The position numbers were made by a program, and so were the translations under genes. A stretch of DNA of 64,000 nucleotides, taken from assembly GCA_023663085.1 (NCBI GenBank), contig JAMPIB010000003.1, positions 1-64,000 of the forward strand. Direction: 5' to 3'. This stretch comes from Ruminococcus sp. (GTDB lineage: Bacteria; Bacillota; Clostridia; Lachnospirales; Lachnospiraceae). This document shows, piece by piece, positions 24,867-39,621 of this stretch. The notes under the pieces were generated by a model. It searched no databases and was not told where the DNA came from. It saw only the letters and a program-made list of their open reading frames with translations. The stretch's first letter is position 1, and each line of letters opens with the position of its first letter.

Positions 24867-26234
24867 TTATTGTGCATATGAAATACAGGTATCCTGGAAG
24901 TTCTGCAGCGCTGCCTTTAAGTCGTCATCACTTGAAGATGTGCTTAAAGTACCGGAGATGATATCATCACCAAGAGCCGTTGCCAGATTCCAGTAATCGC
25001 CAGGGTAGTTACCCTGCGGGATCGTGTTTGCAAGCTGTTCAGCCAGTGCGGAAAGAGCCTCGTCTGCCTGAACTGCGGAATCCTGCTGAGCCGTTACGTT
25101 AGAAGGACCCCAGCCTGCTTCCTGATAACGTGCAAGCTGTACTTCAGAACCTGTCAGATACTGAGCAAGCGCATGGCATACTGCAAGTTTGCCAGCGTCT
25201 TCCTGCGGTTTGATACCTAAGAGTTTGAATCCGCCGAAGCCGCTCAACTGATAAGTCTTACCATCAGAACCTTCAAAAGTAGGCAGTTTTGCACAGGCAT
25301 AGTTGTCACCAAAGATTTCTTTTGCTGCATCTGAATCCCATGTACCGTCAACGATAGCGCCGATGTTGGTACCGCTGGAAATGGAAGAACCATTCTGGAA
25401 GGATTTAGAAGAAGCCAGTTCGATGATCTCTTTTAAGGCAACCAGACCTGCGTCTGATGTATAGTCGATGTTGCATCCTGTAAAGTTACCGTCGTTGTCT
25501 GTATCATAAGTCAATGTACATCCTGTCGCAAAGAAGAATGCCGGCTGATACCATCCGGAGTTGATCTCGAAGTAGAAGTTCTTACCAGCTGCTTCACAGT
25601 CAGCAACGATCGCTTCTAAAGAAGTAGGATCTGTTACAACGCTGCTGTCATAATATAAGAAGTAACCGTTATCGGATGTCATCGGATATGCGTAAGTCAT
25701 ATCACCAACAACTGCTGCGCTTGCCGCACCTGCATCATTCTGAGCTGTAACAAAGTCTGCATTCTCATTGACGATCGGGCAAAGAGCGCCTGCTGAAACA
25801 AGACGTGTGATCTGATCCTGTGCGAAGCCGTACATATCTGCGCCGCCTTCCACGTCAGTGATCATGTTACCTGCCGCATCACCTTCACCTACAGGCTCAA
25901 CAGTTACTGTATAACCTGACATATCGGCATTTGCTGCTAAAAATTCTTCTGCTTTTTCCTTTGTAAAATCAACTACGTTCTCAGCCACCCAGATCGTAAT
26001 GGTGCCGGAACCGTACTCAACGGCCTCGCTGCCGCTGTCTGCTGCTGCGTCGCTGCTGTCCGCCGCATCGCTGCTGTCTGCTGCTGTATCCGTAGATGCA
26101 GAGTCATCTGCCGCCGGTGCGCTGTCAGCCGAAGTATCCCCCCCCGTTGTGTCGGAAGAGCCTCCACCACAGCCAACAAGAGTCGCAGCAACCATTGCTG
26201 TTGCAAGTAATGTTGCTAATACTTTTTTCTTCAT
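24867..26234 (-). CDS. Oligosaccharide-binding lipoprotein of the ABC importer
   Basis: The 455-residue protein is a family 1 solute-binding lipoprotein. It has a signal peptide with lipobox LVGC (Cys 22), a low-complexity Ser/Asp/Ala linker built from DAADSS-type units (to about residue 72), then a MalE-like fold (ITIWVAENVVDFTKEKAEEF; WYQPAFFFATGC; DGTWDSDAAKEIFG). It delivers maltodextrin or galacto-oligosaccharide to the two permeases. It is the first gene of the importer-amylase operon, behind promoter 26394-26422 and a palindromic operator. An eight-G tract (26138-26145) lies in the linker at about residue 30-32. Confidence 0.92.
   Translation of the reverse strand: MKKKVLATLLATAMVAATLVGCGGGSSDTTGGDTSADSAPAADDSASTDTAADSSDAADSSDAAADSGSEAVEYGSGTITIWVAENVVDFTKEKAEEFLAANADMSGYTVTVEPVGEGDAAGNMITDVEGGADMYGFAQDQITRLVSAGALCPIVNENADFVTAQNDAGAASAAVVGDMTYAYPMTSDNGYFLYYDSSVVTDPTSLEAIVADCEAAGKNFYFEINSGWYQPAFFFATGCTLTYDTDNDGNFTGCNIDYTSDAGLVALKEIIELASSKSFQNGSSISSGTNIGAIVDGTWDSDAAKEIFGDNYACAKLPTFEGSDGKTYQLSGFGGFKLLGIKPQEDAGKLAVCHALAQYLTGSEVQLARYQEAGWGPSNVTAQQDSAVQADEALSALAEQLANTIPQGNYPGDYWNLATALGDDIISGTLSTSSSDDDLKAALQNFQDTCISYAQ
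26138..26145 (-). repeat. Eight-G homopolymer in the binding-protein linker
   Basis: Plus strand C8 equals G8 on the coding strand, in the TTGGDT codons shortly after the lipobox. Gain or loss of one base would end the protein early. Confidence 0.6.
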
Positions 26235-26346
26235 AACTTTTTCCTCTCTCTCTTTGTTGCTTATTTTTTCTGTTTATATAAAATGCGTCGCCGCATCTTA
26301 TACCGATCTGTGCCGGCCGCCGGAACTGTCACGGCGAAGCGGGCGG

Positions 26347-26385
26347 TACGAAACTTACGCGATAATTTTTTCGTAAACTTTCGTA
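26347..26385. promoter_or_regulatory. Operator-like inverted repeat downstream of the importer promoter
   Basis: TACGAAACTTACG (26347-26359) and CGTAAACTTTCGTA (26372-26385) are near-perfect inverted arms 12 bases apart. They lie just past the expected transcription start of the binding-protein gene, the usual place for a LacI-family repressor. The LacI gene at 26691 is the likely source. The remaining leader to 26234 (about 110 bases) holds a GATGCG hairpin. Confidence 0.6.
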
Positions 26386-26393
26386 CTAGTATA

Positions 26394-26422
26394 AATGTAT
26401 CACTACCATAGCAATTTGTCAA
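26394..26422 (-). promoter_or_regulatory. Promoter of the importer-amylase operon
   Basis: Minus strand: perfect -35 TTGACA (26417-26422), 17-base spacer, extended -10 TGATACATT (core 26394-26399). Confidence 0.7.
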
Positions 26423-26595
26423 CCATTCTTTCGACATTTATGGTAAATTTGTCAATTAATCCTGTTTTTCAGGTAACATTTTTGTATATTTTGACAATCA
26501 TTATCTTCTTTCTTGAAAAATCTGATATTTTTTTATATATTAATTTATATATTCAGTTTTTTGTATTACAAGAAAATTGCTCCACAATTATCTTG

Positions 26596-26630
26596 GGAAG
26601 AATGCTCCGCATTCTTCCGCCTCGTCGAGG
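26596..26630. repeat. Double hairpin (REP-like candidate) upstream of LacI
   Basis: GGAAGAATGC/GCATTCTTCC (26596-26618, loop TCC) is followed by CCTCG/CGAGG (26620-26630). The region 26423-26690 otherwise holds only AT-rich sequence; I see no clear promoter for the LacI gene. Confidence 0.45.
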
Positions 26631-26690
26631 AATTTTCTAATTATATAAAAATACAAAAGATACTATCATGTGTGTAAGGAAGAATTCTCT

Positions 26691-27689
26691 ATGGCTACTA
26701 TCAAAGATATTGCAAGCAGGCTTGGCATCTCAGTCAGTACTGTCTCCAAGGGACTGAACGGCGCTAATGATATCAGCGAGCAGCTCAGACAGACCGTACT
26801 CGATACCGCGGTGGAAATGGGGTATACCACCAGGCAGATGCGGACAAAGGAAAACCCAAAACTCTGTATTTTTATCGAAAACATGGACTATCAGGAATCC
26901 GACCAGTTCGGTTATGATATCATCCTCGGCTTTAAACAGGCCGCGTATCCGGACTATGACGTATCCGTTGTGCCTGTCAGTCCCGCTTTCCAATCCGCCG
27001 AAAAATATGATACCTATATGCTAAAAAACGGTTATGTCGGCGCGTTCTTAGTCGGTTTTGCCCTACAGGACGCCTGGATGGAACAGCTGAATACGACAGC
27101 CATCCCCACCTCTTTATTCGATAATTATGTCCGTAAAAATCCTAATGTCAGTTATATCGGCACGGACAGTTTTGAAGGTCTCGACGACGCCATCGAGCAT
27201 CTGATCGGCCTTGGACACAGCAAAATTGCCATGATCAGCGGCTCTTCTCATTCCATGATAACCGAACAGCGGCGTCAGGCTTATATCGAAAGCATGGCCG
27301 CGCATGATCTTCCGATTGACGAACGCTGGATGCCCTACGGTTATTATGTGGCGGCCGCCGCCAGACCGCATGTGATGAACCTGCTCTCGCTCGGCGTCAC
27401 CGCCATTGTATGCGGTAACGACCTGCTGGCCTCCGGTGTACTGGAAGAATGCAGACTGCACAGTTTCCGCGTTCCGGAAGACGTCAGCATCATCGGTTTC
27501 GACGATATCCCGATCTCCGCACAGCTTGATCCGCCTCTTACGACTATCAGGCAGGATCGGATCGAACTCGGCAAATGCGGTTTTTATACCCTGCATTCAG
27601 CGATCAATCATGTGTCTGTCAGCAAAAACCTGTTACGGCCGCAGCTTATCGTCAGAAATTCTACCGGGCCGGCTAAACAGCTTTCGTAA
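26691..27689 (+). CDS. LacI-family regulator of the importer operon
   Basis: The 332-residue protein has the LacI helix-turn-helix at its N terminus (ATIKDIASRLGISVSTVSKG) and a periplasmic-binding-like effector domain (VGAFLVGFALQDAWMEQL; VSIIGFDDIPISAQLDPPLT). It is divergent from the sugar importer operon, whose promoter region has a palindromic operator, so control of that operon is the obvious role. I chose the ATG at 26691, with AGGAAG upstream, over an in-frame GTG at 26670. The last codons are repeated into the 3' spacer (27674-27713), followed by a terminator shared with the convergent GH53 gene. Confidence 0.9.
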   Translation: MATIKDIASRLGISVSTVSKGLNGANDISEQLRQTVLDTAVEMGYTTRQMRTKENPKLCIFIENMDYQESDQFGYDIILGFKQAAYPDYDVSVVPVSPAFQSAEKYDTYMLKNGYVGAFLVGFALQDAWMEQLNTTAIPTSLFDNYVRKNPNVSYIGTDSFEGLDDAIEHLIGLGHSKIAMISGSSHSMITEQRRQAYIESMAAHDLPIDERWMPYGYYVAAAARPHVMNLLSLGVTAIVCGNDLLASGVLEECRLHSFRVPEDVSIIGFDDIPISAQLDPPLTTIRQDRIELGKCGFYTLHSAINHVSVSKNLLRPQLIVRNSTGPAKQLS

Positions 27690-27713
27690 AACAGTTTTCC
27701 AAAACAGTTTTCC
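27674..27713. repeat. 13-bp tandem repeat over the LacI stop codon
   Basis: TAAACAGCTTTCG (27674), TAAAACAGTTTTCC (27687) and AAAACAGTTTTCC (27701) follow without gap. The first copy is coding and the second starts with the TAA stop. Confidence 0.7.
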
Positions 27714-27716
27714 ATT

Positions 27717-27746
27717 ATATGGCTCCCGGACAGGAGCCATATTTTT
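27717..27746. terminator. Terminator between convergent lacI and GH53
   Basis: ATATGGCTCC (27717-27726) pairs with GGAGCCATAT (27733-27742) and is followed by a T run on the plus strand. It also lies directly after the GH53 stop on the minus strand. Confidence 0.85.
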
Positions 27747-28849
27747 CAGTGAAAGTCCCGGATTGCCGCAAGTGCCGGCAGCGCATTGCCCTCGTAGTCA
27801 AACAGTGCCTGATTGGCCCACTCGTTGCCGCCGGGGCCTTTTTCATTCATATAGGCTATCGCTTCTTTAGAAGCCCAGCCCGACCCGGCTACCGGGATCC
27901 AGGCCGCCTCCCAGTAAAAGAAGCCGCATCCTTTCTGCTCCGGTACTTCTTTTAACAACTTACAGAAATCTTCCATGAAATGTTTCTGACCCTCTTTGGT
28001 CATCGGATAATCTATCTTCTCCACAAGTTCGGGTTTGGTGGCCATTCCTTTTCGTTCCTCCGGCCCTAATTTTTCATAAGAAGCATAATCCTCCATCGTA
28101 TGTCCCATGGACACTTCCACGACCATCAACTCTTTGCCGTAGCGGAGCGCGATATCGTTCATATTGTTGCGCAGATCGTCCATCGTCCCGTGCCAGAACG
28201 GATAATAAGACAGGCCGATGATCTGGAAATCCTCGCCTTTTTCCATGAAATGATCGAACCATTCCCGGTAAAGAGCATTGTTGCCGCCATTATCCAGATG
28301 GATAACAATTGGTATTTTATCGTCCACAGCCCTGACGCCCCGGATACCCGCATTCAAAAGCCTGGCCAGATTGTCATAGTCCGGCACCTGTCCGTACGGC
28401 CAGAGGATACCGCCTGTGACCTCGTTACCCACCTGTACCAGCGTCGGAAAAGCGTTTTCCTGTTTCATCGTCTCTAACGTCTCTTTCGTATAACGATACA
28501 CCGCGTCTTCCAACTGTTCCAGACCCATGCCCTGCCAGGCCTTGGGAACACGCTGCTTGCCGGGATCCGCCCAGAAATCGCTGTAGTGAAAGTCAAGCAG
28601 CACTTCCATATCCTTTGCCAGCGCCCGCTTCGCCAGTTCTATCGTGGTCGGCAGGTCGTTTGTCCCTGCCCCGTAAGGTTCCCCGGCCTCCGTATACGGG
28701 TCATTCCACAGGCGGAGCCGGACAGCGTTCACATCATAGCTTTGCAGAATGTCGAACACATCCTTCTCCTGACCGTGGTCAAAAAAACGCCCGCCCAGAC
28801 TCTCCACTTCTTTTAATGAAGAGATATCCATTCCCTTTATAAATTTCAT
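27746..28849 (-). CDS. Intracellular GH53 endo-beta-1,4-galactanase
   Basis: The 367-residue protein is a GH53 barrel that cuts beta-1,4-galactan chains. Family blocks are GMDISSLKEVESLGG at the start, VRLRLWNDPY, DFHYSDFWADPGKQ, the acid/base Glu in LVQVGNEVTGG, and the nucleophile Glu in LMVVEVSMGH. It ends with the GC(G)FFYWEAAWIPV block typical of the family. There is no signal peptide, so it likely works in the cytoplasm on imported oligosaccharides. It is the last gene of the operon of the 619-aa protein and the zinc-ribbon protein. It is a paralogue of the secreted GH53 at 36.7-38.8 kb. Confidence 0.92.
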   Translation of the reverse strand: MKFIKGMDISSLKEVESLGGRFFDHGQEKDVFDILQSYDVNAVRLRLWNDPYTEAGEPYGAGTNDLPTTIELAKRALAKDMEVLLDFHYSDFWADPGKQRVPKAWQGMGLEQLEDAVYRYTKETLETMKQENAFPTLVQVGNEVTGGILWPYGQVPDYDNLARLLNAGIRGVRAVDDKIPIVIHLDNGGNNALYREWFDHFMEKGEDFQIIGLSYYPFWHGTMDDLRNNMNDIALRYGKELMVVEVSMGHTMEDYASYEKLGPEERKGMATKPELVEKIDYPMTKEGQKHFMEDFCKLLKEVPEQKGCGFFYWEAAWIPVAGSGWASKEAIAYMNEKGPGGNEWANQALFDYEGNALPALAAIRDFH

Positions 28850-28873
28850 GTGTTATTTATCTCCATTCCGGAT

Positions 28874-29092
28874 TTAATCGAAATCAAATTTGGTAAAGCG
28901 TTTTTGTGCATCCTTATAACGGAATCTGACCAGTTCATTCTTCTCCAGAACATCTTCTTCCGTTCCCACATACTGACAGCGGATACAGTGGTATTCTTTT
29001 TTATCCTTATCATAAAACATGTCGATATCCAGATCTCTCATAAAGCAGGAGGGACACCTGTAATTTAATTTGCCTTTGCCAGATTGAGCCAT
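28874..29092 (-). CDS. Small zinc-ribbon protein
   Basis: The 72-residue protein carries two cysteine pairs, CPSC near residue 13 and CIRC near residue 37, which should form one zinc ribbon, followed by a charged C-terminal helix (LVRFRYKDAQKRFTKFDFD). I do not know its function. Its ATG lies inside the end of the 619-aa gene (28-base overlap) with an AAGGAGG ribosome site 10 bases ahead, so its translation is coupled to that gene. Its place between an enzyme-like gene and a galactanase suggests a role in the same regulon, but small zinc ribbons are often general nucleic-acid or protein adaptors. Confidence 0.75.
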   Translation of the reverse strand: MAQSGKGKLNYRCPSCFMRDLDIDMFYDKDKKEYHCIRCQYVGTEEDVLEKNELVRFRYKDAQKRFTKFDFD

Positions 29093-30924
29093 GTCGCAAA
29101 TACCTCCTTATCTTTCAACTTGGTCGTATAACCTAACGTAAACATCGGTGAGAAAGCGTAGCCTTCCTTGATATAACCGACAGCGTCTTTCTTTTCACAG
29201 CTTAAGGAAACCCTTGTCTCAATATCCGGGATCACGGAAATGACTTCCGTCGCGCCCTCCATCTGCTCCTCGCGGCATTTATATTCGTATTTGATGTTCT
29301 TAGAATCCGTACCGTTCGTGCAGGTAAGAGTGATATTGCTCATATCCTCGGAATATTCCGTCGTACCATAGCAGGCAACCATATATTCGTTGATCTCTAC
29401 TTCTGCGCTGGGATCGCTCATCTCCAGAATATTTCTCTCGATCTTGATCGCGGAGCTGCCCTCTTCAAAGTACATCTTCGTCTGTAGTTTTACGGTCAGG
29501 TCATAGAATTCGATATCCACAGGGTCAAGCGTTAAGATTCTCGTTTTCCCAGTTCCCGAAGCATTCTCCTCTTCCGAAAAATGCGCCTTCGTCCTGCACA
29601 GGCACAGATCCACTTCCTCGCCTTTATATGTCAGCTTGGCGCTTCTAACCGTACCTTCGCCCGCATAATGCGTAAAATAACCCGCTCTGTATTTTTCCTG
29701 AATGAGGAAAGGATAAGAAGCATCCGTTATATGCTTGGTACCGATTCCTACCGGCCATTCCAGTTTCGCCGCATAAGGACGCAGATCAACGATAGCGCCG
29801 CCCTGATCCATATTGGCGCAGACTCTCATGTAAGGGTCGCAGTACCAGAATAACTGTTTGTCCGAACCGTATAAGATATCTCTCCAAAGAGCGCATTCCG
29901 GCTCGGTAAGCGTCTTTTTGCCACGGTAATAATCTGCAAATTCCGCCATGGTCATATCGTCCAGTTTCCCTTCTTTTTTCAGCTGTCCATAATAAGCCAT
30001 GCCGTCTTCATAGGATTTCAATAACAGTTCATACGGCGCCTCCCAGCGTCCCATCTTATTCATCCAGCCGGGGCCTACGAACATCATATTGTAAGCATAA
30101 CCATTGTTATATTTTGCCAGATCGCGATACTGGTCGATCAGGTTATACAGATACGGATATTCCCATGTCTTGCTGTCATAACTCATACTGCGCAGAACAT
30201 TCTGCGGATGCGTACCGAAATTGGAGCCGTTACCGTCATAGCAGGCAAGCAGGTCGCGCGATAAGTGCGGGATTGCTACGATGCCGCTGTCTTCTTCTTC
30301 ATTAGCCGCCGGTGCATGGACGTTCTGCTTACTGGGGATCCACGGCGCCCACGGGCCGCCATCCATGAAGGTATACCAGGAGTTATTGCATGTATGATAT
30401 GCTTTGGGGCCTTCTTCCCAGCAGGTCGCAACGGCACATTTCACCATCGGATATTTCTCTTTGATATAATTGATCAGTTCTGCATCCATATAATAAGAGC
30501 CTGTAGACTCCGGATAGAAGCCGAAACGCTCATGGAATTTTCCGAAAACATCCTCTACGATAGAGATTTTGTCTTCCATGGAAAACATCCAGATACAGAA
30601 ATCTTTCGTTTTATATTTCTCACGGAACTCCTTGCAGGGCAGTCCCAATAAGGATAAGGCAATCTCGTCTCCGTACTTTTCATGATCCGCCTTGGCCAGT
30701 TCGACCGCCTCATCATTGAACAAAGAAGCGTATGTCATCTGGATCGTCGTTTTCAAACCGTTCTTATGTGCAATGGCCTGCTGTGTCTTAAAAATGTCCA
30801 GAGATTCTGTCAACAGGGCTTTTCTGCTGATATCTTCCTCTTTTCCGTGTCCGGTTACTTTCTCCGCATACTCAGGAACCATTTCCGGACGATGGATAAT
30901 GTTTACAATAAACTTGTTCTCCAT
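29065..30924 (-). CDS. Unrecognised 619-aa enzyme-like protein in the galactan operon
   Basis: I cannot assign a family with confidence. The protein is soluble, without signal peptide. The first 350 residues look like a (beta/alpha) barrel of the deacetylase or glycosidase kind, with acidic and aromatic blocks FYPESTGSYYMD (136-147), CWEEGPKAYH (168-177), PWAPWIPSKQ (191-200) and HLSRDLL (220-226). The last 250 are beta-rich, as in carbohydrate-enzyme sandwich domains. I set the start at 30924 behind a strong AAGGAGGG site; an upstream in-frame start at 30981 lacks one. It heads an operon with the zinc-ribbon and GH53 genes, and its promoter shares an operator-like motif with GH42. A role on galactan-derived sugar is inferred. 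Confidence 0.8.
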   Translation of the reverse strand: MENKFIVNIIHRPEMVPEYAEKVTGHGKEEDISRKALLTESLDIFKTQQAIAHKNGLKTTIQMTYASLFNDEAVELAKADHEKYGDEIALSLLGLPCKEFREKYKTKDFCIWMFSMEDKISIVEDVFGKFHERFGFYPESTGSYYMDAELINYIKEKYPMVKCAVATCWEEGPKAYHTCNNSWYTFMDGGPWAPWIPSKQNVHAPAANEEEDSGIVAIPHLSRDLLACYDGNGSNFGTHPQNVLRSMSYDSKTWEYPYLYNLIDQYRDLAKYNNGYAYNMMFVGPGWMNKMGRWEAPYELLLKSYEDGMAYYGQLKKEGKLDDMTMAEFADYYRGKKTLTEPECALWRDILYGSDKQLFWYCDPYMRVCANMDQGGAIVDLRPYAAKLEWPVGIGTKHITDASYPFLIQEKYRAGYFTHYAGEGTVRSAKLTYKGEEVDLCLCRTKAHFSEEENASGTGKTRILTLDPVDIEFYDLTVKLQTKMYFEEGSSAIKIERNILEMSDPSAEVEINEYMVACYGTTEYSEDMSNITLTCTNGTDSKNIKYEYKCREEQMEGATEVISVIPDIETRVSLSCEKKDAVGYIKEGYAFSPMFTLGYTTKLKDKEVFATWLNLAKAN

Positions 30925-30957
30925 ATTGCCCTCCTTTTGCTGTTTTCCCTTGATTTT

Positions 30958-30976
30958 ACCGATGCGCAATCGGTTG
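30958..30976. promoter_or_regulatory. Operator-like palindrome of the 619-aa gene
   Basis: ACCGAT and ATCGGT (30958-30974) flank GCGCA. The plus-strand string GCGCAATCGGTTG (30964-30976) matches the GH42 site at 34508-34520 in 12 of 13 bases. It lies 12 bases past the -10, ideal for a LacI-type repressor. Confidence 0.65.
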
Positions 30977-30987
30977 TTCATGTGCTT

Positions 30988-31016
30988 AGGATACCAAAGT
31001 GTATTATTGTTGTCAA
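30988..31016 (-). promoter_or_regulatory. Promoter of the 619-aa/zinc-ribbon/GH53 operon
   Basis: Minus strand: perfect -35 TTGACA (31011-31016), 17-base spacer, -10 TATCCT (30988-30993). Confidence 0.65.
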
Positions 31017-31067
31017 TGTGTATATTTGCCTATTTCACATGTTGAAAATTATATAATTTGCACAAAT

Positions 31068-31200
31068 GGCAAAATTGGTAAATTTCTGGCAAATTTGACA
31101 CATTTTGGCAAATTTGGTAAATTTCTGGCAAATTTGACACTTTTTTGGCAGATTTGATAAATTTCTGGCAAATTTGACACTTTCCCGGCAGATTTATCAT
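31068..31200. repeat. Seven-unit 20-bp repeat array
   Basis: GGCAAATTTG-type units start at 31068, 31088, 31107, 31127, 31147, 31167 and 31187, so the step is 19-20 bases. The second halves alternate between GTAAATTTCT and ACACTTTT forms, making a 40-bp higher-order unit. CAAATTTG is an 8-base palindrome. The array runs from the LacI stop codon to about 50 bases upstream of the -35 of the 619-aa operon. Confidence 0.85.
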
Positions 31201-32205
31201 CTACGGCGCAGTCGATTCCCGCATGGAGATCTGATAGCCGAGCAGCGTGCGCTTCTGCACGGTCTCCCCTTCTATCATTTTCAGAAGACTCCTGCAGGTC
31301 ATCTCTCCAAGTTCCTCCACGTCGAACTGGATTGACGTGATGGAAGGCATATGATTGGCTAAGAGCGAACTGTCGTAGAAAGAAGCAACCTTGATCTGTG
31401 CGGGCACTTCCACTTTCCATTTCCGCAGCGTATTTAACACACAGTTACACAGATAATCATCCATAGTAACGATACACTCTGCCTGTTCCTTCAACATTTT
31501 TTCCACGATAGCCGCCGCTTTCGCCTCATCTTCCACATCCATGAAGACATGTCCCTCCGCAGGCTCTTTCCCCTGTTTCCGGTAAGCCTCCAGAAAACCG
31601 CCTAAACGATTGCTGTTGACGATATAGTCCCGGCTGCCGCCGATCAGAGCTATTTTCTCAAGTCCCTGCGCCAGCAGCCTCTCCGTCAGTTCCCTGCAGG
31701 CGCTGTAGTGATCGTTGTCAATCTGGACTGCCTCCTCATCTTTCGTACTGCCGATGGTCACAAAGGGGATCCCCGTCTCTTTTAAATAAGCCACCGAAGC
31801 ATCCTCAACCAGCGTCCGCGTTAAAATAACACCGTCTACTTTATGATTGATCACCACCCGGTGCAGTCTGGAAATATCCTCTGGCATAACAACTGATATT
31901 AAAACATCATAGTCCAGCAGAGAAGCCGTCTTACTGATACCGAGCATACAGTTCTGGAAAAAGGGCAGTTCCACAAGGTTATAATTCCCCGGTATCACCA
32001 GTCCGATATTGTAAGTTCTGGACTGAGCCAGTCCTTTGGCTATCACATTCGGCCGGTAATCATGTTCCTCAATATAGCGGAGGACCTTCTCCCGCGTCTC
32101 CGCACCGATACGGCCCTTGCCGGAAATGGCACGGGAAACGGTGGTTTTGGATACGCCAAGTTCTTCGGCGATATCGTTAATGGTAAGGTTTTTGTCTTCT
32201 GACAT
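31201..32205 (-). CDS. LacI-family regulator, probable galactan regulator
   Basis: The 334-residue protein has a LacI helix-turn-helix (LTINDIAEELGVSKTTVSRA, residues 7-26) and the hinge segment YRPNVIAKGL, followed by the effector-binding domain (YNIGLVIPG; FVTIGSTKDEEAVQID; TRSLLKMIEG-like end). It lies just upstream of the 619-aa/GH53 operon, with the repeat array between them, and has its own promoter at 32280-32308. It is the best candidate for the protein that binds the GCGCAA-CGGTTG motif in front of that operon and GH42, an inference from position. Confidence 0.9.
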   Translation of the reverse strand: MSEDKNLTINDIAEELGVSKTTVSRAISGKGRIGAETREKVLRYIEEHDYRPNVIAKGLAQSRTYNIGLVIPGNYNLVELPFFQNCMLGISKTASLLDYDVLISVVMPEDISRLHRVVINHKVDGVILTRTLVEDASVAYLKETGIPFVTIGSTKDEEAVQIDNDHYSACRELTERLLAQGLEKIALIGGSRDYIVNSNRLGGFLEAYRKQGKEPAEGHVFMDVEDEAKAAAIVEKMLKEQAECIVTMDDYLCNCVLNTLRKWKVEVPAQIKVASFYDSSLLANHMPSITSIQFDVEELGEMTCRSLLKMIEGETVQKRTLLGYQISMRESTAP

Positions 32206-32279
32206 GGTAAAAGAAAGACTCCTTTCGTGTGAGCGGCAGATAAATACAGGTAAATATCTCCCAAGTTCTATCTATACAT

Positions 32280-32308
32280 AATATAGCGGATATTTAGGGG
32301 GAACGCAA
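32280..32308 (-). promoter_or_regulatory. Promoter of the galactan-locus LacI gene
   Basis: Minus strand: -35 TTGCGT (32303-32308), 17-base spacer, -10 TATATT (32280-32285). Confidence 0.6.
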
Positions 32309-32342
32309 TCCCCTCCACCCTCACCCCGCTGTCTCCTGTCTT

Positions 32343-34001
32343 CTATTTTTCCCCGACCTCACTCTTTGCCAAGACTGCTTTCAGTTTTTCCGATTCTGTT
32401 TCGATGACCTTTTTATCAATCCTCTGGAACAGTATATACACTTCGGGGACAGGGTATCCGGCGGGAACGGACTGTTTCTGCCAGATGTTGGGAATATCCA
32501 GCCACTTACAGACTTTTTCCGAAGAAAAAGGCAGAAAGGGATATAACAGTAGCGCCAGATTGGCGATGATCTGCACGCACTGGTACAATGTTTCCCTGCA
32601 GGCAGTCTCATCAGTTGTTCTGGTGATCCACGGCGCATTTGTATCAAAAAGTTTGTTGGCGGCCCTTACGAAATCAAAGATCTCATCGAGGGCATCTTTG
32701 AAGGCCCCGGCTTCTATCTGTCCGCCGACGCTTACAAAAAGCGCTTCGATCTGCTTATCCAGCGCTGTATCAAGTGTTCCTTCCGGCACGACCCCGCCCA
32801 GATACTTTGTGATAAAGGTCAGACAGTGGTTTACATAATTTCCATAAGCTCCCAGCAATTCCCCGTTATGACTGTGAACATATTCTCTCCAGGAAAAATC
32901 CGCATCCTTCTTCTCCGGGCCGTTGACCAGAAAAAAATAACGAATGGAATCCGCCTCGTAGTGCGCCAGAAGGTCTTTGACCCATATCGCATAATTCCGG
33001 CTCGTCGAAATCTTTCTTCCTTCCAGCGTCATATATTCGCTGGATATGATACGGTCGGGCAGATGCCAGCCTTTGCCATGCGCTGACAAAAGTGCGGGCA
33101 GTATAATTGTATGAAAAGGGATGTTATCTTTGCCGTGTACATAATAGTGAAGGGCATCCTTCCCCCAAAGCTTTTCAAAACCGGGGCCGCCTTTTTGGGC
33201 CGCTTCTTTGCTGGCTGACAGATAACCCAGAACATTTTCCGCCCAGATATAGATGGTCTTATCTTCGTATCCTTCCCGCGGCACTTTTATCCCCCACTCC
33301 AGATCTCTGGTCAGCGCACGGTCCCGCAGCCCCTCGTTTATATACTTTTTCGTAAAAGCGATCGCATTTTTTCTCCACTCCGGATGTGCGGCCGCCAGCT
33401 CTTTTAATTCCTTTTCCAGCGCGCTGACTGCGATATATAAATGTCTGGAATTTCTGAAACTGACTGGCTTTCCACATATGGTGCAGACCGGCTCTGACAG
33501 ATTTTCCGCATCCAGCACCGCACCACAGGCATCACACTGATCCCCTCTGGCATCCTGCCCGCACTTCGGGCATTTCCCCAATACGAAACGATCCGCCAAA
33601 AAAGTACCGCAGTTTTCGCAATATGCCGCCGGAGCCTCCCTTTCATATACATAGCAGCTGTTATATAATTCTCTGTGAAATTCCTGTACGAAAGTTTTAT
33701 GCTCCGTAGATGATGTTTTCCCATAAACGTCGTAACTGAAACCCAGTCTGGCAAAACAGTCGCAAAACTCTTCATGATAATGATCGCTGATCTCCTGCGG
33801 CGTCCGCTTCTCCTGTTTTGCACGGATGGCTACCGGCGTTCCATGACAGTCGCTCCCCGATACAAAACACACGTTATCTCCCAGCGCTCTATGATATCTG
33901 GCCAGCACATCTCCGGGCAGTAACCCCGCGATGTGGCCTATATGGAGCGAGCCGTTAGCATACGGCCACGCTCCGCCGATCAAAATAGTTCTCTTTTTCA
34001 T
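32343..34001 (-). CDS. metG: Methionyl-tRNA synthetase, short archaeal-like type
   Basis: The 552-residue enzyme charges tRNA-Met. HIGH appears as HIGH in SLHIGHIAG (residues 18-21). The zinc-knuckle region (about 125-180) has four Cys pairs (CENC, CPKC, CDAC, CTIC). The KMSKS loop reads GRKISTSRNYAI, as in the KFSTS-type enzymes of archaeal-like MetRS. The C-terminal tRNA-binding (EMAP-like) domain of longer bacterial MetRS is absent. It is controlled by a T-box leader with an ATG specifier codon. A second, standard metG may exist outside the window; this type is often an accessory copy. Confidence 0.93.
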   Translation of the reverse strand: MKKRTILIGGAWPYANGSLHIGHIAGLLPGDVLARYHRALGDNVCFVSGSDCHGTPVAIRAKQEKRTPQEISDHYHEEFCDCFARLGFSYDVYGKTSSTEHKTFVQEFHRELYNSCYVYEREAPAAYCENCGTFLADRFVLGKCPKCGQDARGDQCDACGAVLDAENLSEPVCTICGKPVSFRNSRHLYIAVSALEKELKELAAAHPEWRKNAIAFTKKYINEGLRDRALTRDLEWGIKVPREGYEDKTIYIWAENVLGYLSASKEAAQKGGPGFEKLWGKDALHYYVHGKDNIPFHTIILPALLSAHGKGWHLPDRIISSEYMTLEGRKISTSRNYAIWVKDLLAHYEADSIRYFFLVNGPEKKDADFSWREYVHSHNGELLGAYGNYVNHCLTFITKYLGGVVPEGTLDTALDKQIEALFVSVGGQIEAGAFKDALDEIFDFVRAANKLFDTNAPWITRTTDETACRETLYQCVQIIANLALLLYPFLPFSSEKVCKWLDIPNIWQKQSVPAGYPVPEVYILFQRIDKKVIETESEKLKAVLAKSEVGEK

Positions 34002-34041
34002 GGTCTTATTCCTCTTTTCTGATTATTTTCGCCTATATAAT

Positions 34042-34360
34042 AAAAAAACCCTCCTCTCTGAAAAATTTCTTTTTCAGGGACGAGAGCTGTTGCTTCGTGT
34101 TACCACCCCAAATTCACCCATACCTCACGATATGGGCCTTATCAACTACGGACGAGAAATGACTCCTCGATAGTCTATCACGATAACGGGTGAACCCGTC
34201 GCAGCCTTGGCCGGATCGTTTGTTACAGGTACTGGCGATCCGAACTTCGGTGCGCGGCTCCGAGACCATTTTCGACGGTTCCTTCCGTATCTGTTCTCAC
34301 CCTTCCAGACTCTCTGTGACGTATCTAACCGCTTACTCTTCTCTTCATTGCCTTTTTGAT
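34042..34360 (-). promoter_or_regulatory. T-box leader of metG (specifier ATG)
   Basis: On the minus strand Stem I starts with GCAATGAAGAGAAGAGTA near 34350 and includes the AGAGAG and GGTGAGAA elements. The specifier codon ATG is at 34267-34269, in GTCGAAAATGGTCTCGGAGC. The T-box core GGGTGGTAACACG lies at 34096-34108; its TGGT bulge fits an ACCA tRNA end. A terminator hairpin (CTGAAAAA/TTTTTCAG) with a T7 run closes it at 34042-34080. Uncharged tRNA-Met should therefore turn metG on. This fills most of the 579-base gap 34002-34580. Confidence 0.92.
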
Positions 34361-34381
34361 ATTATGGTATCATATGTGTTT

Positions 34382-34409
34382 ATTATAACATGACCGGGCG
34401 TATTTTCAA
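34382..34409 (-). promoter_or_regulatory. Promoter of metG T-box transcript
   Basis: Minus strand: -35 TTGAAA (34404-34409), 16-base spacer, perfect -10 TATAAT (34382-34387). Transcription would start about 25 bases before Stem I. Confidence 0.65.
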
Positions 34410-34422
34410 CTGGTTTTTGTTA

Positions 34423-34462
34423 TTTTGAACATTTTGAACATTTCACGAACATTTCATCAACA
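34423..34462. repeat. Four GAACA iterons between divergent promoters
   Basis: TTTTGAACA (34423), TTTTGAACA (34432), TTTCACGAACA (34441) and TTTCATCAACA (34452). They lie between the metG -35 and the GH42 -35. Confidence 0.6.
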
Positions 34463-34464
34463 TA

Positions 34465-34493
34465 TTTACCTTTCGCCCTTTTCATGCTAGAAT
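34465..34493 (+). promoter_or_regulatory. Promoter of GH42
   Basis: -35 TTTACC (34465-34470), 17-base spacer, extended -10 TGCTAGAAT (core 34488-34493). Confidence 0.55.
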
Positions 34494-34505
34494 TTTCATA
34501 CAACA

Positions 34506-34521
34506 CCGCGCAAGCGGTTGC
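34506..34521. promoter_or_regulatory. Operator-like site of GH42
   Basis: ACCGC-GCAA-GCGGT and, overlapping, GCAAGC-GGTTGC with a central CG as in LacI-family sites. GCGCAAGCGGTTG (34508-34520) differs by one base from the site before the 619-aa gene and lies 15 bases past the -10. Confidence 0.65.
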
Positions 34522-34580
34522 ATAGCACTGATCCGGCATCAATCCAATAGAAAAAAGGAAAAAAGAAAGGAAAACAGACA

Positions 34581-36644
34581 ATGAACGTAGACAAACTATT
34601 ATTCGGGGCGGCATATTATGACGAATACCTGCCTTATGACAGAATTGAAACAGATATGGAACTTATGGAAAAGGCGCATATCAACGTGATCCGTATTGCG
34701 GAATCCACATGGAGCACCTGGGAAGTCCAGGACGGCGTCTTTGATTTTACGCACTTACACCGTATGTTAAAGGCATCACAGGCGCATGGCATTCAGGTCA
34801 TCGTGGGTACGCCCACTTATGCGGTGCCGACCTGGCTTGTGGCCAGATATCCCGATATCCTCACGGAAACGCACTACGGGCCGGAGCGTTACGGCCGCAG
34901 GCAGAATATGGATATTACGCATCCCATGTATTTAAAATATGCCGAACGCCTTATCCGCAGATTGATGGAAGAAGTCAGACCTTATACGCATGTGATCGGC
35001 TTTCAGTTAGACAATGAAACCAAGTCTTATGATACCTGCAGCCGCTATGCGCAGGCTAAATTTGTCGAGTATTTAAAGGAAATTTTCCACAATGATCTGG
35101 ATGCCCTGAACCATGCGTTCGGTCTGGATTACTGGAGCAACCGCATCAACGCCTGGGAAGACTTTCCTGATGTGCGCGGTACTATCAACGGCAGTCTGGG
35201 AGCGGAATATCAGAAATTCCAACGTAAACTTGTCACTGATTTTCTTGCCTGGCAGAGCGCTGTCGTCAAAGAATATGCCCGCCCGGAGCAGTTCATCACC
35301 CAGAATTTTGACTATGACTGGCGCGGCTATTCTTTCGGTTTACAGCCGGAAGTCGATCAGTGGAAAGCCGGCGTTTTCGTAAGCGTTGCCGGATGCGATA
35401 TCTATCATCCTTCCGCGCAGGATCTGAGCGGTGCAGAAATCGCTATAGGCGGCGACATCGCCCGCTCTGTCAAAAAGGACAACTATCTGCTGCTGGAAAC
35501 CGAAGCGCAGGGCAATCTCGGCTGGCTCCACTATCCCGGTCAGTTAAGATTACAGGCTTTCAGCCACCTTGCATCGGGTGCCAATTCCGTTATGTACTGG
35601 CACTGGCATTCCATTCACAACGCTATTGAATCCTACTGGAAGGGTATCTTGAGCCACAATCTGAAAGAAAATGCAACCTACCGGGAAGTCTGCCGGATCG
35701 GGGAAGAATTTGCCGCTTACGGCGCACATTTAAAGAATCTGAAAAAGAAAGCGCAGGCCGCGCTCCTGCTCTCTAACGAGTCGCTTACGGGCCTGCAATG
35801 GTTCGCGATACACGAGGATCTGAAATATAACGATATCGTCCGCTGGATCTATGACGCGCTTTATCAGATGAACGTGGAATGCGATATTCTCTGTGACAGC
35901 GATACTGACCGTTTCAGTCAATATTCTTTATTAATAACACCTGCTCTTTACAGTGCTTCTGATACCTTAATAGAAGCTCTGCGCACCTATGTCAAGCAGG
36001 GCGGCCATCTGTTTTCCACTTTTAAAACAGCGGTCAGTGACCCTATGTTAAAAATTTATCATGACGACCAGCCGCACGCTCTGACGGAAGTTTTCGGCAT
36101 GACCTATGACCAGTTTACGAACGCCGTACATGTCGGCCTGGAAAATATCTCTTTCATCCCATCCAGCCCGGAAAAGGCCATAGAAAAAGATGAAGACAGG
36201 GACTCTGCAAACGCTGTGGGCAAAGAATCCATAGACTGCGTCCACTACTGGATGGAACTGTTACAGCCACAGACTGCCAGAAGCCTTGCCACCTACAAAC
36301 ATCCGCACTGGAATGCCTACAGCGCCATTACTCACAATCATTACGGCCAGGGAACCGCCACCTACGCAGGCTGTTATTTCGAGCAGTCCCTGTTAAAAGA
36401 ACTGCTGGGCTTTTTATGTACCGAAGCAGGCATAGCGCTTGCCGAAGAACAATTTCCTGTTATCATCAAACGCGGCGTAAACGATCTTGGTAAAAATATC
36501 ACCTACTATTTTAACTATTCGGATGATGAACAGAAGATTGCCTGGCATGACGGGGACGCGCATCTGCTGATGCAGGATAAGGAAATCCATGACGGCGATA
36601 TCATAACGCTGCCCTGCTGGGATTTTATTGTGCTGGAGAAATAG
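34581..36644 (+). CDS. GH42 beta-galactosidase
   Basis: The 687-residue enzyme releases galactose from beta-galacto-oligosaccharides. It starts LLFGAAYYDEYLP, the standard GH42 opening. The acid/base Glu lies in IGFQLDNETKSY (near residue 141) and the nucleophile Glu in YLLLETEAQGNLGW (near 302). The trimerisation domain with IYDALYQMNVECDILCD and a C-terminal beta domain follow, so length and order are complete. There is no signal peptide, so it acts inside the cell after import. It has its own promoter and operator, is divergent from metG, and converges on the secreted GH53 with which it shares a terminator. Confidence 0.95.
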   Translation: MNVDKLLFGAAYYDEYLPYDRIETDMELMEKAHINVIRIAESTWSTWEVQDGVFDFTHLHRMLKASQAHGIQVIVGTPTYAVPTWLVARYPDILTETHYGPERYGRRQNMDITHPMYLKYAERLIRRLMEEVRPYTHVIGFQLDNETKSYDTCSRYAQAKFVEYLKEIFHNDLDALNHAFGLDYWSNRINAWEDFPDVRGTINGSLGAEYQKFQRKLVTDFLAWQSAVVKEYARPEQFITQNFDYDWRGYSFGLQPEVDQWKAGVFVSVAGCDIYHPSAQDLSGAEIAIGGDIARSVKKDNYLLLETEAQGNLGWLHYPGQLRLQAFSHLASGANSVMYWHWHSIHNAIESYWKGILSHNLKENATYREVCRIGEEFAAYGAHLKNLKKKAQAALLLSNESLTGLQWFAIHEDLKYNDIVRWIYDALYQMNVECDILCDSDTDRFSQYSLLITPALYSASDTLIEALRTYVKQGGHLFSTFKTAVSDPMLKIYHDDQPHALTEVFGMTYDQFTNAVHVGLENISFIPSSPEKAIEKDEDRDSANAVGKESIDCVHYWMELLQPQTARSLATYKHPHWNAYSAITHNHYGQGTATYAGCYFEQSLLKELLGFLCTEAGIALAEEQFPVIIKRGVNDLGKNITYYFNYSDDEQKIAWHDGDAHLLMQDKEIHDGDIITLPCWDFIVLEK

Positions 36645-36662
36645 GCCATTGGCCTATTTCTT
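36637..36662. terminator. Shared terminator palindrome holding both stop codons
   Basis: AGAAATAGGCC (36637-36647), loop ATT, GGCCTATTTCTT (36651-36662). The TAG stop of GH42 (36642-36644) and the TAG stop of GH53 (36654-36656 on minus) lie symmetrically in the two arms; both genes end in codons AAA TAG. Confidence 0.85.
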
Positions 36663-38834
36663 ATGCAGATAAAAATCATCCAGCGTTCCCCAGCCTTTGG
36701 CCGCGCAGCTAATAGAGGCGCCGACCGTCAGCGTACCGTCGTCTCCTATCGTGATCTCGCTGATAACGGGATTCTTCCAGTTACACCAGCCATCCACTTC
36801 CGTATCCTGCGTCAACTGCTCCGTACCGTTATCCGCATAGATATACATCTGCGCATCCGCACCGGCATCGCCGCCCTGCAGATAGAGGCCGAATTCATAT
36901 GTTCCCGGTTCCAGACCCGTGACCGTCTGCTCCACGGTAAAGGAGACTGCGCTCTCCGACCAGAAATGCAGCGACATGACGCCACTGTAGGCATCTGACT
37001 CTTTATTCTGGAAATCCGTTGCATTACCCTCAATCTCCCACATGGAGGTATCTGCCTCTTCAAAACTGTTATTGGCCAGCAGATTCTGCTGATTTATATA
37101 TATAACAGCTGTTACTTTTTCTTCCGGTAACTGTTCTATTGTTGTAGACGTCGTTTCTGTTCCGTCCACTGAAACCGATTCATCCGTAAACATGCCGTTC
37201 ACCTCATATTCTCCGCTTACGGAAGTGTCGATTGCGGCAAGCGCCTCCTGATCCCATTCCACGCTCACTTGCGCGCTGCTTCTGTCATTGAATAAAACGG
37301 TCGCTTTTTCGGGCATTTCCAGTTCTCCGCCAAGCGGCACGTTGACCTCTACTACAGGAATACTCTCCACTTTCTGTTCTACCAGCGTACCGCAATGCAG
37401 ATATTTAAAGACTTTCAACGATTCCAGCGGATGCCCTTCAAAATCAAAGAGCGCCTGATTATCCCAGGAACTACCGCCGTAATTTTTGCCCGCATCCTTG
37501 GGGTCATAATCTCCCGCATAACTGGAAGCCCAGCCGGAACCTTTACTCTCCCATGCTTCTTTATTGGCGGCCAGTGCATCCGCAGCGCCTGCAGCCGTGG
37601 CATCATAGACATTGACCGGAATCCAGGCCGGTTCCCAGTAAAAAAGACCGAGTCCTGCATCGCCGATGCTGGCAACAGCCGCGCAGACGTCTCTGACTTC
37701 ATTGGCCTGTCCCTGCTCGTTCGCCGCATATTCCGGTACCAGACCACCCTCGTCAACGCTGTTGCCGGAGCCGTCACCGTCTCCTGTCGTATAAAGATAG
37801 GAATTTTCCGCTACCACTACTTTTTTCCCATATTCTCCGGATATGGTGTGAAGCACATCCGCCAGATTCTCCAACGTACCATGCCAGAACGGATAATAGG
37901 AGACGGCAAACACATCATAATCGACCTCTTTTTCCAATAATTTCTGCGCATTGGCAATCGTCCCGTCCTTATCGGAAATATCCGTAAAATGAACGGCGAT
38001 CAGGATATCCTGTCCCTTTTCCTGCGCTACTTCCCGGACAGCCTTAGAACCCGCCCGCAGAAGCTGGCCTTTTTTACCCCATTCGCTCTCTCCGGACATT
38101 CCGTTATTAATTTCGTTACCGATCTGCACCATACCGACTACCGCGCCCGCATCTATGATCTGTGTCAGACTTTCTTTCGTATACTGATAAAGCGCCTCCG
38201 ATTTTTCCTCAATAGACATGCCTTCCCAGGCTTTCGGGCACTGTTGCTTCGATGGGTCCGCCCAGAAATCGGAATAATGATAGTCCACGCAGAGTTTCAT
38301 GCCATAGGCCGCCGCCCTGACGCCGATCTTGGCCGCCGTATCCGTATCATTATGACCGCCGCCATAGCTGTTGCCCTCCGCGTCATAAGGATCGTTCCAT
38401 ACGCGCACTCTGATATAGTTCACGCCATTCTGAGCCAGCGTCTGAAATATATCCTGCTCCTGTCCTTCTTCGTTATAATAGACAACGCCGCTTTCTTCCT
38501 CCGCGATAACACTGGAAATATCCACGCCTCTGATAAAATCCGCCGCCAGACCCTCGATCGGTTCTACATATACGTCCGCTTCTTCCGCCTCTGCCGGCAG
38601 TTCATAGATAATGGGTGTTATTATATTGGCCGGACTTCCTGACGCCTCATTTCCGGCATCTTCTCCGGCCTGCTCTCCCGTATTATCAGCGGCTGCATTC
38701 TCATCCGTCGATATTCCGCTCTCTGTTTCCTGCGTATTCTCCGAAGCTGCTTTTTCTGCGCCGCCGCAGCCTGTCAACCCCAGTATCAGGCACATCGCAG
38801 GAATTGTTAAATAATGATTTAATTTCTTTTTCAT
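36654..38834 (-). CDS. Secreted GH53 endo-galactanase lipoprotein with CBM61-like module
   Basis: The 726-residue lipoprotein has a signal peptide with lipobox LTGC (Cys 23), then an acidic linker (to about residue 100). The GH53 catalytic domain (about 105-465) shows RGVDISSVIAEEESG, VRVRVWNDPYDAEG, DYHYSDFWADPSKQ, the acid/base in VQIGNEINNG and the nucleophile in VVVAENSYLY. An Ig-like domain (VNVPLGGELEMPEKATVLF, about 495-570) and a C-terminal CBM61-like galactan-binding module (NLLANNSFEEADTSMWEIEG onward, about 583-726) follow. It would cut type I galactan at the cell surface and supply oligosaccharides for import. It is convergent with GH42. A candidate -35 (TTGTAG near 38929) is weak. 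Confidence 0.93.
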   Translation of the reverse strand: MKKKLNHYLTIPAMCLILGLTGCGGAEKAASENTQETESGISTDENAAADNTGEQAGEDAGNEASGSPANIITPIIYELPAEAEEADVYVEPIEGLAADFIRGVDISSVIAEEESGVVYYNEEGQEQDIFQTLAQNGVNYIRVRVWNDPYDAEGNSYGGGHNDTDTAAKIGVRAAAYGMKLCVDYHYSDFWADPSKQQCPKAWEGMSIEEKSEALYQYTKESLTQIIDAGAVVGMVQIGNEINNGMSGESEWGKKGQLLRAGSKAVREVAQEKGQDILIAVHFTDISDKDGTIANAQKLLEKEVDYDVFAVSYYPFWHGTLENLADVLHTISGEYGKKVVVAENSYLYTTGDGDGSGNSVDEGGLVPEYAANEQGQANEVRDVCAAVASIGDAGLGLFYWEPAWIPVNVYDATAAGAADALAANKEAWESKGSGWASSYAGDYDPKDAGKNYGGSSWDNQALFDFEGHPLESLKVFKYLHCGTLVEQKVESIPVVEVNVPLGGELEMPEKATVLFNDRSSAQVSVEWDQEALAAIDTSVSGEYEVNGMFTDESVSVDGTETTSTTIEQLPEEKVTAVIYINQQNLLANNSFEEADTSMWEIEGNATDFQNKESDAYSGVMSLHFWSESAVSFTVEQTVTGLEPGTYEFGLYLQGGDAGADAQMYIYADNGTEQLTQDTEVDGWCNWKNPVISEITIGDDGTLTVGASISCAAKGWGTLDDFYLHKK

Positions 38835-38953
38835 AGTTAAATCAAACCCTCCCTTTCATCTGAAACAGATAAATTTTTACTTCCCGAAATGATATTTTCA
38901 GTTTACCATATCTTCCTGCCTGCCTACAACTTATTTTATATCATAAAAAGTTC

Positions 38954-38983
38954 TTGCCTAACCCCATCCACCTATGCTATAAT
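38954..38983 (+). promoter_or_regulatory. Promoter of tRNA-Trp (and the lipoprotein)
   Basis: -35 TTGCCT (38954-38959), 18-base spacer, perfect -10 TATAAT (38978-38983), about 25 bases ahead of the tRNA. Confidence 0.7.
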
Positions 38984-39014
38984 ATCTCTCGGTGGTTCGT
39001 TATTTACCACGCAT

Positions 39015-39085
39015 AGGGGCATAGTTCAAAGGTAGAACAGTGGTCTCCAAAACCATCGATGTGGGTTCGATTCCTACTGCCCCTG
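39015..39085 (+). tRNA. tRNA-Trp (anticodon CCA)
   Basis: Acceptor arms AGGGGCA (39015-39021) and TGCCCCT (39078-39084) pair fully, with G as discriminator. D stem GTTC/GAAC, anticodon stem GTGGT/ACCAT with loop CTCCAAA (anticodon CCA), T arm GTGGG-TTCGATT-CCTAC. The CCA end is not encoded. It is 71 bases long. Confidence 0.95.
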
Positions 39086-39087
39086 TT

Positions 39088-39621
39088 ATGAAAAGATCAT
39101 TTATCATCCTATTACTTTCGGCGCTTATGATGACCGGCTGCGGCAAGGAGACATTGCTTCTGACAGAGGCTGATTACGCGCTGAATCTGCAATCAAATAC
39201 GACAAGTAAAGGCATCGGTATCGGTGATACGCCAGAGGCGTTTTTAGAAGCCTATAGCGGTTATAATATCGAGACGACGAAAAACGGCGGCTCCTATCAG
39301 GCCCTGCCGGATGATGAGATTCCCTTTGAGGAACCCATCAAGACAATATTGCCTACTTTCTTCATTAATGGAGTCCCCGCAACGATTGAACAGATATGCG
39401 AAGAAAATGGAATCCAGCGGCTGGAATTATTACCGCTTCTCAGTTCCGAGGAATATCTGCAGGATCATACTGTAACTTATCATTACATAGTCTTCAGCTG
39501 GGAGAACGGCGTCATCACAGATATCCGCTCGGAGTACATGGACTACAACGAAGATGCTTCTTACTATGAAGAACTGGAAAAAGAAGAACTGGAAACCGGG
39601 GAACCGGAAACCGAAAACTGA
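39088..39621 (+). CDS. Small lipoprotein encoded directly after tRNA-Trp
   Basis: The 177-residue protein starts MKRSFIILLLSALMMTGCGKE, a clear lipoprotein signal with lipobox MTGC. The mature part is unrecognised; it has IGIGDTPEAFLEAYSGY and a final Glu-rich tail. The ATG is only two bases after the tRNA 3' end. The upstream 25 bases are tRNA and contain no ribosome site; reading frames that start inside the tRNA are not plausible. After tRNA maturation the mRNA would be nearly leaderless. The last 58 bases overlap the convergent ABC gene and consist of 15-bp repeats (from about 39573), the final copy including the TGA stop. Confidence 0.75.
   Translation: MKRSFIILLLSALMMTGCGKETLLLTEADYALNLQSNTTSKGIGIGDTPEAFLEAYSGYNIETTKNGGSYQALPDDEIPFEEPIKTILPTFFINGVPATIEQICEENGIQRLELLPLLSSEEYLQDHTVTYHYIVFSWENGVITDIRSEYMDYNEDASYYEELEKEELETGEPETEN

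Follow-up and report, generated by a model that had tools for sequence, protein, structure and literature searches.

Two promoters of a galactan-utilization locus in a Ruminococcus species carry nearly the same 13 bases just downstream of their predicted -10 boxes. This raises the question whether both are operators of one regulator, which regulator that would be, and whether a 619-residue protein of no named family (u619) belongs to galactan breakdown. The window, that is the whole stretch of 64,000 nucleotides analysed here, is part of a 3.4-Mb draft genome; its features are listed in Table 1. The two 13-mers that the preliminary description had reported are indeed found at 30964-30976 and 34508-34520, with 12 of 13 bases identical. 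GCGCAAKCGGTTG has no exact match in the 64 kb beyond these two, and allowing up to 3 mismatches gives no enrichment there (22 matches, against a mean of 31 expected). The window by itself is thus barely beyond chance, and the case has to be built from relatives. Five further matches to GCAANCGNTTG in the window's genome were inspected (L001, L003, L006, L010, L011); all lie inside open reading frames and were taken as chance.

Table 1. Features of the galactan locus and its surroundings in the window
Feature	Position	Strand	Basis and remarks
Intracellular GH53 (GH53i), endo-beta-1,4-galactanase	27746..28849	-	Pfam Glyco_hydro_53; 24 bases past the zinc-ribbon gene
Zinc-ribbon protein (znr)	28874..29092	-	two CxxC; 28-base overlap with the end of u619
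u619, 619-aa protein	29065..30924	-	GH57/deacetylase-like N-terminal domain and mutarotase-like C-terminal beta-sandwich (low-confidence models)
LacI-type operator core (predicted)	30966..30977	.	GCAATCGGTTGT; transcribed strand ACAACCGATTGC; central CG 30971-30972
Predicted promoter of u619 gene	30988..31016	-	TTGACA, 17, TATCCT; core begins 10 bases after the -10 hexamer
lacIA, LacI-family regulator, proposed repressor	31201..32205	-	Pfam, co-occurrence with the motif; recognition-helix region SKTTVSRAISGKGRIG
Accessory methionyl-tRNA synthetase (metG), outside the regulon	32343..34001	-	between lacIA and GH42; splits the promoter region that is divergent in relatives
T-box leader of metG	34073..34357	-	Rfam RF00230, 91.8 bits, just below the gathering score of 93
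Predicted promoter of GH42	34465..34493	+	TTTACC, 17, TAGAAT; core begins 16 bases after the -10 hexamer
LacI-type operator core (predicted), before GH42	34510..34521	.	GCAAGCGGTTGC; central CG 34515-34516
GH42 beta-galactosidase	34581..36644	+	Pfam Glyco_hydro_42 and 42M

The element conserved in the window and its relatives, GCAANCGNTTGC, is an even palindrome centred on CG, as is usual for LacI-family operators. It is exact before GH42 and has 1 mismatch before u619. Upstream regions of orthologues found among 48 genomes of the genus were searched for sites, defined as GCAANCGNTTGC with at most 1 mismatch; regions shorter than 50 bases and those whose match started after residue 12 were excluded, and some of the retained regions are shorter than 400 bases. 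A site is present before u619 in 39 of 42 regions and before GH42 in 26 of 38, whereas in 100 runs of Markov-1 resampling the mean was 0.6 (maximum 3) for u619 and 0.61 (maximum 4) for GH42. The near-identity of the two 13-mers might be a coincidence, as the absence of enrichment among looser matches in the window would allow, but the counts in relatives far exceed the resampled maxima and leave this reading a negligible chance. For lacIA, whose upstream regions share the gap with GH42, 31 of 42 contain a site. Among the control regions, GH53i has 1 in 38 and znr 1 in 42, both of which are the same place, within u619 coding sequence of G042; the second LacI gene of the cluster (lacIB) and the sugar-binding-protein gene of the ABC transporter (SBP) have none (0 of 27 and 0 of 22). 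The motif had been expected before orthologues of u619, GH42 and GH53 alike; this holds for the first two (39 of 42 and 26 of 38), and GH53i, with its single instance in 38, has no site of its own. The longer palindromes that were thought to enclose the 13-mers, ACCGC..GCGGT and ACCGAT..ATCGGT, are present in the window, yet occur in 1 of 38 GH42 and 1 of 42 u619 upstream regions. They look accidental, and we rejected them as the operator, since among the regions searched they are confined to the window.

The position of the element relative to the promoters is also conserved. Before u619 the block consists of TTGACA (37 of 39), an extended -10 box and then RCAACCGWTTGCGC; the core starts 10 bases after the -10 box in 31 of the 39 genomes with a site and 12-16 bases after it in the other 8. 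The preliminary description had put the 13-mers 12-15 bases past the -10 boxes, which comes close to the gaps of 11 (30993-30988 to 30976) and 14 (34488-34493 to 34508) that we measured. The sites are past the predicted transcription start and could form a 4-bp stem, so they might instead act as an RNA element within the 5' leader. However, the distance between core and u619 start codon ranges from 49 to 232 bases, and a single palindrome lies within the gap between divergent lacIA and GH42 genes in 25 of 29 relatives (genes within 1.6 kb; the four gaps without a site are those of G012, G032, G036 and G041). Moreover, an Rfam scan of 26000-40000 gave just a tRNA at gathering scores. We regard an RNA element as highly unlikely.

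Which LacI protein would bind these operators? The protein encoded between the two sites, lacIA, has a LacI helix-turn-helix and a periplasmic-binding-protein-like domain (PF00356, PF00532 and PF13377, the latter two Peripla_BP_1/3, all above the Pfam cut-off). In the genus genomes with u619, lacIA and the site before u619 are both present in 39, both absent in 3 and never found one without the other (Fisher 9e-5, a value that ignores relatedness, with lacIA-less genomes being few (3) and two of these, G007 and G021, alike). In the third, G011, lacIA is missing from the interval between u619 and GH42, there is no good-scoring lacIA elsewhere, and the 200 bases that separate its u619 and GH42 genes carry no site, so that both promoters are siteless. 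The DNA-binding domain of lacIA is near-constant in the genus, reading SKTTVSRA-I/M-SGKGRIG in most. Two distant lacIA homologues with SASTVSRA have GCAAACG-type sites nearby (L229, L234), a pairing that we take as a hint.

The second LacI-family protein of the window (Pfam), lacIB at 26670-27689, is encoded in the same cluster and might bind the sites instead. Yet 10 genomes that lack a lacIB match at E 1e-80 still have the site, while G011 keeps lacIB (77%) and has neither lacIA nor site. The divergent promoter of lacIB itself is siteless on the lacIB (0 of 27) as well as on the SBP side (0 of 22). Control by lacIB is therefore hardly credible, and the proposed link of the motif to the intervening LacI gene is supported, since the presence of the motif tracks lacIA and not lacIB. 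A different sequence, AGTACGAAAGTTTACGAA on the minus strand at 26370-26387, lies just after the predicted -10 box of the sugar-binding-protein gene and has a similar counterpart in G008; it is a candidate lacIB site. A motif common to lacIB/SBP promoters was sought in 10 of them, and a GTACGAAA-type stretch, found in 5 of 10, was all that emerged.

Cre boxes, the binding sites of the global catabolite regulator CcpA, resemble LacI-type operators, and their consensus is TGNAANCGNWNNCW. The GH42 site, written as TGCAACCGCTTGCG, is a near fit to this consensus, and the best solved relative of lacIA by sequence is a CcpA. The B. subtilis gan operon is described as having a cre box in addition to GanR control (PMC5472308), and CcpA regulons were reported in every Firmicutes group analysed in a survey of the family (PMC4052901). 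Within the window's genome, lacIA is outscored for CcpA by other LacI proteins (best 212 bits), and a divergent CcpA may act at the sites. However, our search, which took in 30 of the 48 genus genomes, found a CcpA above the NCBIfam TIGR01481 cut-off (442.35 bits) in none of 49 genomes (these 30 included), as compared with 2 of 14 control genomes, and lacIA itself reaches 169 bits, below that cut-off. Genomes without lacIA also lack the site, which argues against CcpA. Furthermore, matches to the pattern are sparse (at most 7 listed per genome, counting both strands) and often lie at galactan genes, unlike what a global regulator would produce. We therefore consider it improbable that the sites are cre boxes.

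Taken together, the retention of the motif in orthologous promoters, its dependence on lacIA and the position of the core past the -10 box support in silico the LacI-operator reading of the preliminary description, and both sites are very probably operators of one local LacI-family repressor, lacIA, in a galactan regulon. Without inducer, a lacIA dimer would occupy GCAANCGNTTGC just past the -10 boxes and would thereby keep both GH42 and the u619-zinc ribbon-GH53 run from being transcribed. A product of galactan breakdown, most likely beta-1,4-galactobiose or galactose, would then free lacIA from the operator. We infer binding by lacIA, repression rather than activation, and the identity of the inducer. 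Repression by blocking RNA polymerase is suggested because the operators lie a few bases past the predicted transcription start, and the inducer is proposed because B. subtilis GanR is described as responding to beta-1,4-galactobiose (PMC5472308).

The regulon is likely to extend along the gene run that starts with u619. In the genus, znr accompanies u619 in 42 of 42 cases and GH53i is nearby in 38 of 42. The conserved run together with the shared motif strongly supports, in silico, the earlier proposal that u619, the zinc-ribbon protein and the intracellular GH53 belong to the GH42 regulon. GH42 itself is not always a member, since six genomes in which it is remote from lacIA have no site before it (G002, G003, G033, G034, G039 and G025, the last with up to 2 mismatches allowed). 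The lacIA-less genomes G007 and G021 have no operator and no intracellular GH53 in the stretch; they keep u619 and the zinc-ribbon gene adjoining a secreted-type GH53 (L148, L149).

In the window, the upstream regions of the ABC transporter and of the secreted GH53 are without a GCAANCGNTTGC-type site; in relatives the smaller secreted GH53 has one in 3 of 10 upstream regions. Twenty off-cluster regions with sites in relatives were examined from a longer list. In 8 of the 20 the site lies 18-114 bp before large secreted proteins, in 2 it lies 83 bp before galK-galT (two species), 9 sites are within open reading frames and 1 precedes an unassigned gene. Two such secreted proteins were scanned (L312, L314), and both are very large GH53 proteins with FIVAR domains. 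For galK, 30 of 40 matches were examined. A site with at most 1 mismatch precedes 10 of these 30 and a site with 2 mismatches a further 6; the galK of the window has none. Counting up to 2 mismatches, galK sites occur in 15 of the 24 lacIA-bearing genomes and in 1 of the 6 that lack lacIA, the exception being a 2-mismatch site in G015. It is uncertain whether galK is a general member of the regulon.

Beyond the genus, the best 80 of 397 loci of u619 homologues were studied, 46 of which are extra-genus (L196-L241). In 30 of these 46 a site lies between genes and close to a mapped one, and in 16 there is no such site; a site directly precedes u619 in 11 of 46. Each of the nine loci whose lacIA homologue shows 51-60% identity contains an intergenic site. 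Among the 80 loci, that of bacterium 1xD42-87 (L186) has lacIA and the site; in that of Roseburia hominis An869 (L225), u619, the zinc-ribbon gene and GH53 are present, and the stretch contains neither lacIA nor a site. In five loci (L208, L220, L226, L233, L236) the site precedes an ABC-transporter operon. There, a lacIA-type site is followed by SBP, two permeases and u619, and in 4 of the 5 loci GH53 comes after these. No such site precedes the transporter in the window's genus (0 of 22 for SBP), where it lies opposite lacIB in many genomes, the window's included. The predicted control of the transporter is thus different between the genus and other Lachnospiraceae, a change of wiring.

What, then, are u619 and its partner? 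The overlap of the two genes is preserved in 79 of the best 80 of 397 loci, and the pair adjoins GH53 in 71 of the same 80 and in 39 of the 46 extra-genus loci. Named relatives with a u619 gene are mostly labelled Lachnospiraceae, and the remaining named genera presumably belong to this family too. Within the genus u619 is 88-97% identical, as compared with 55-73% for lacIA and 65-83% for GH53i; such conservation is expected for a tightly constrained step. No Pfam or NCBIfam family matches u619 at E 0.001, and a single-sequence PDB search was empty. The cut-off of DUF3863 is not reached by u619 either, the nearest approach being one distant homologue (E 0.022, 14 bits as against 27). AlphaFold2 models (mean confidence 61.8 and 57.0) suggest a GH57/deacetylase fold and a mutarotase-like sandwich; because this confidence is low, we make no claim about an active site. 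A profile match to 3lm3 (BDI_3119, a putative glycoside hydrolase/deacetylase) has 12% identity, and u619 differs from it by its extra predicted mutarotase-like C-terminal sandwich. E170 and D224 of u619 are invariant in 15 homologues; in the alignment 3lm3 has Ser in the E170 column and Asp in the D224 column. E170 and D224 may correspond to the catalytic Glu and Asp of GH57. CE4 deacetylases use a metal-binding triad Asp-His-His, and no His is invariant across the 15 u619 homologues, with the pocket coming from a low-confidence model. Judging from the fold and profile matches, u619 is probably an uncharacterised carbohydrate-active enzyme. A more specific proposal is that u619 and znr form a galactan enzyme that works inside Lachnospiraceae cells and represents a new carbohydrate-active family with the GH57/deacetylase fold; it would act on GH53-made galacto-oligosaccharides and be controlled by the same LacI operators as GH42. 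In our estimation this proposal has an even chance of being right.

The arrangement in the window has its own peculiarities. The accessory metG is sporadic, with matches in 4 of 21 genus genomes (its own included, two of them partial), and among the mapped stretches it lies between lacIA and GH42 in the window only. No operator was found in the lacIA upstream region of the window. As GH42 has the operator and lacIA none, auto-control of lacIA has probably been lost in the window's species. Between lacIA and the u619 promoter, at 31064-31202, there are six overlapping 40-base AT-rich copies with TGGCARATTTGRYA and a period of about 20, which is near two helical turns; the genome's 5 exact matches all fall there, and the repeat is absent from 60 stretches of relatives searched.

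LacI-type regulation of galactan use has been described before. B. subtilis GanR is a LacI-family repressor of galactan use with beta-1,4-galactobiose as inducer (PMC5472308), and the locus described here resembles it in having a LacI-family repressor over galactan-use genes. There are also differences. The GanR motif, AGTAAA-N4-TTTACT, precedes the ganS -35 box, whereas here GCAANCGNTTGC lies downstream of the -10 box, and neither GCAATCGGTTGT nor GCAAGCGGTTGC has the AGTAAA-N4-TTTACT form. GanR reportedly does not control galETK (unpublished data in PMC5472308), while in two of the species studied here a site precedes galK-galT. Five genes, ganSPQAB, make up the gan operon in that account, which names neither a u619-like nor a zinc-ribbon gene (PMC5472308). 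According to the LacI-family survey, most sites are even palindromes with a central CG, and in local regulons the regulator adjoins its targets and frequently regulates itself (PMC4052901); lacIA of the window fits this pattern except that it has no operator of its own. The main text of this survey contains no words beginning with Lachnospira. Predicted arabinogalactan loci with GH53 were reported for Roseburia faecis, R. hominis and R. intestinalis, and the R. intestinalis loci list ABC transporters and LacI regulators as in the window; the description of these loci names no operator and no u619-like protein (PMC5320581). In the open-access literature we found no paper on a galactan LacI operator or DUF3863. 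What the present analysis offers is a predicted operator and regulon through which a large group of gut Firmicutes would control galactan use, and a link between the galactan pathway and a conserved, uncharacterised protein pair, u619 and znr, of which u619 would be missed by Pfam or NCBIfam annotation. LacI control of galactan genes is already known and the locus studied here is a further case with its own operator; what is new is the pair of u619 and znr.
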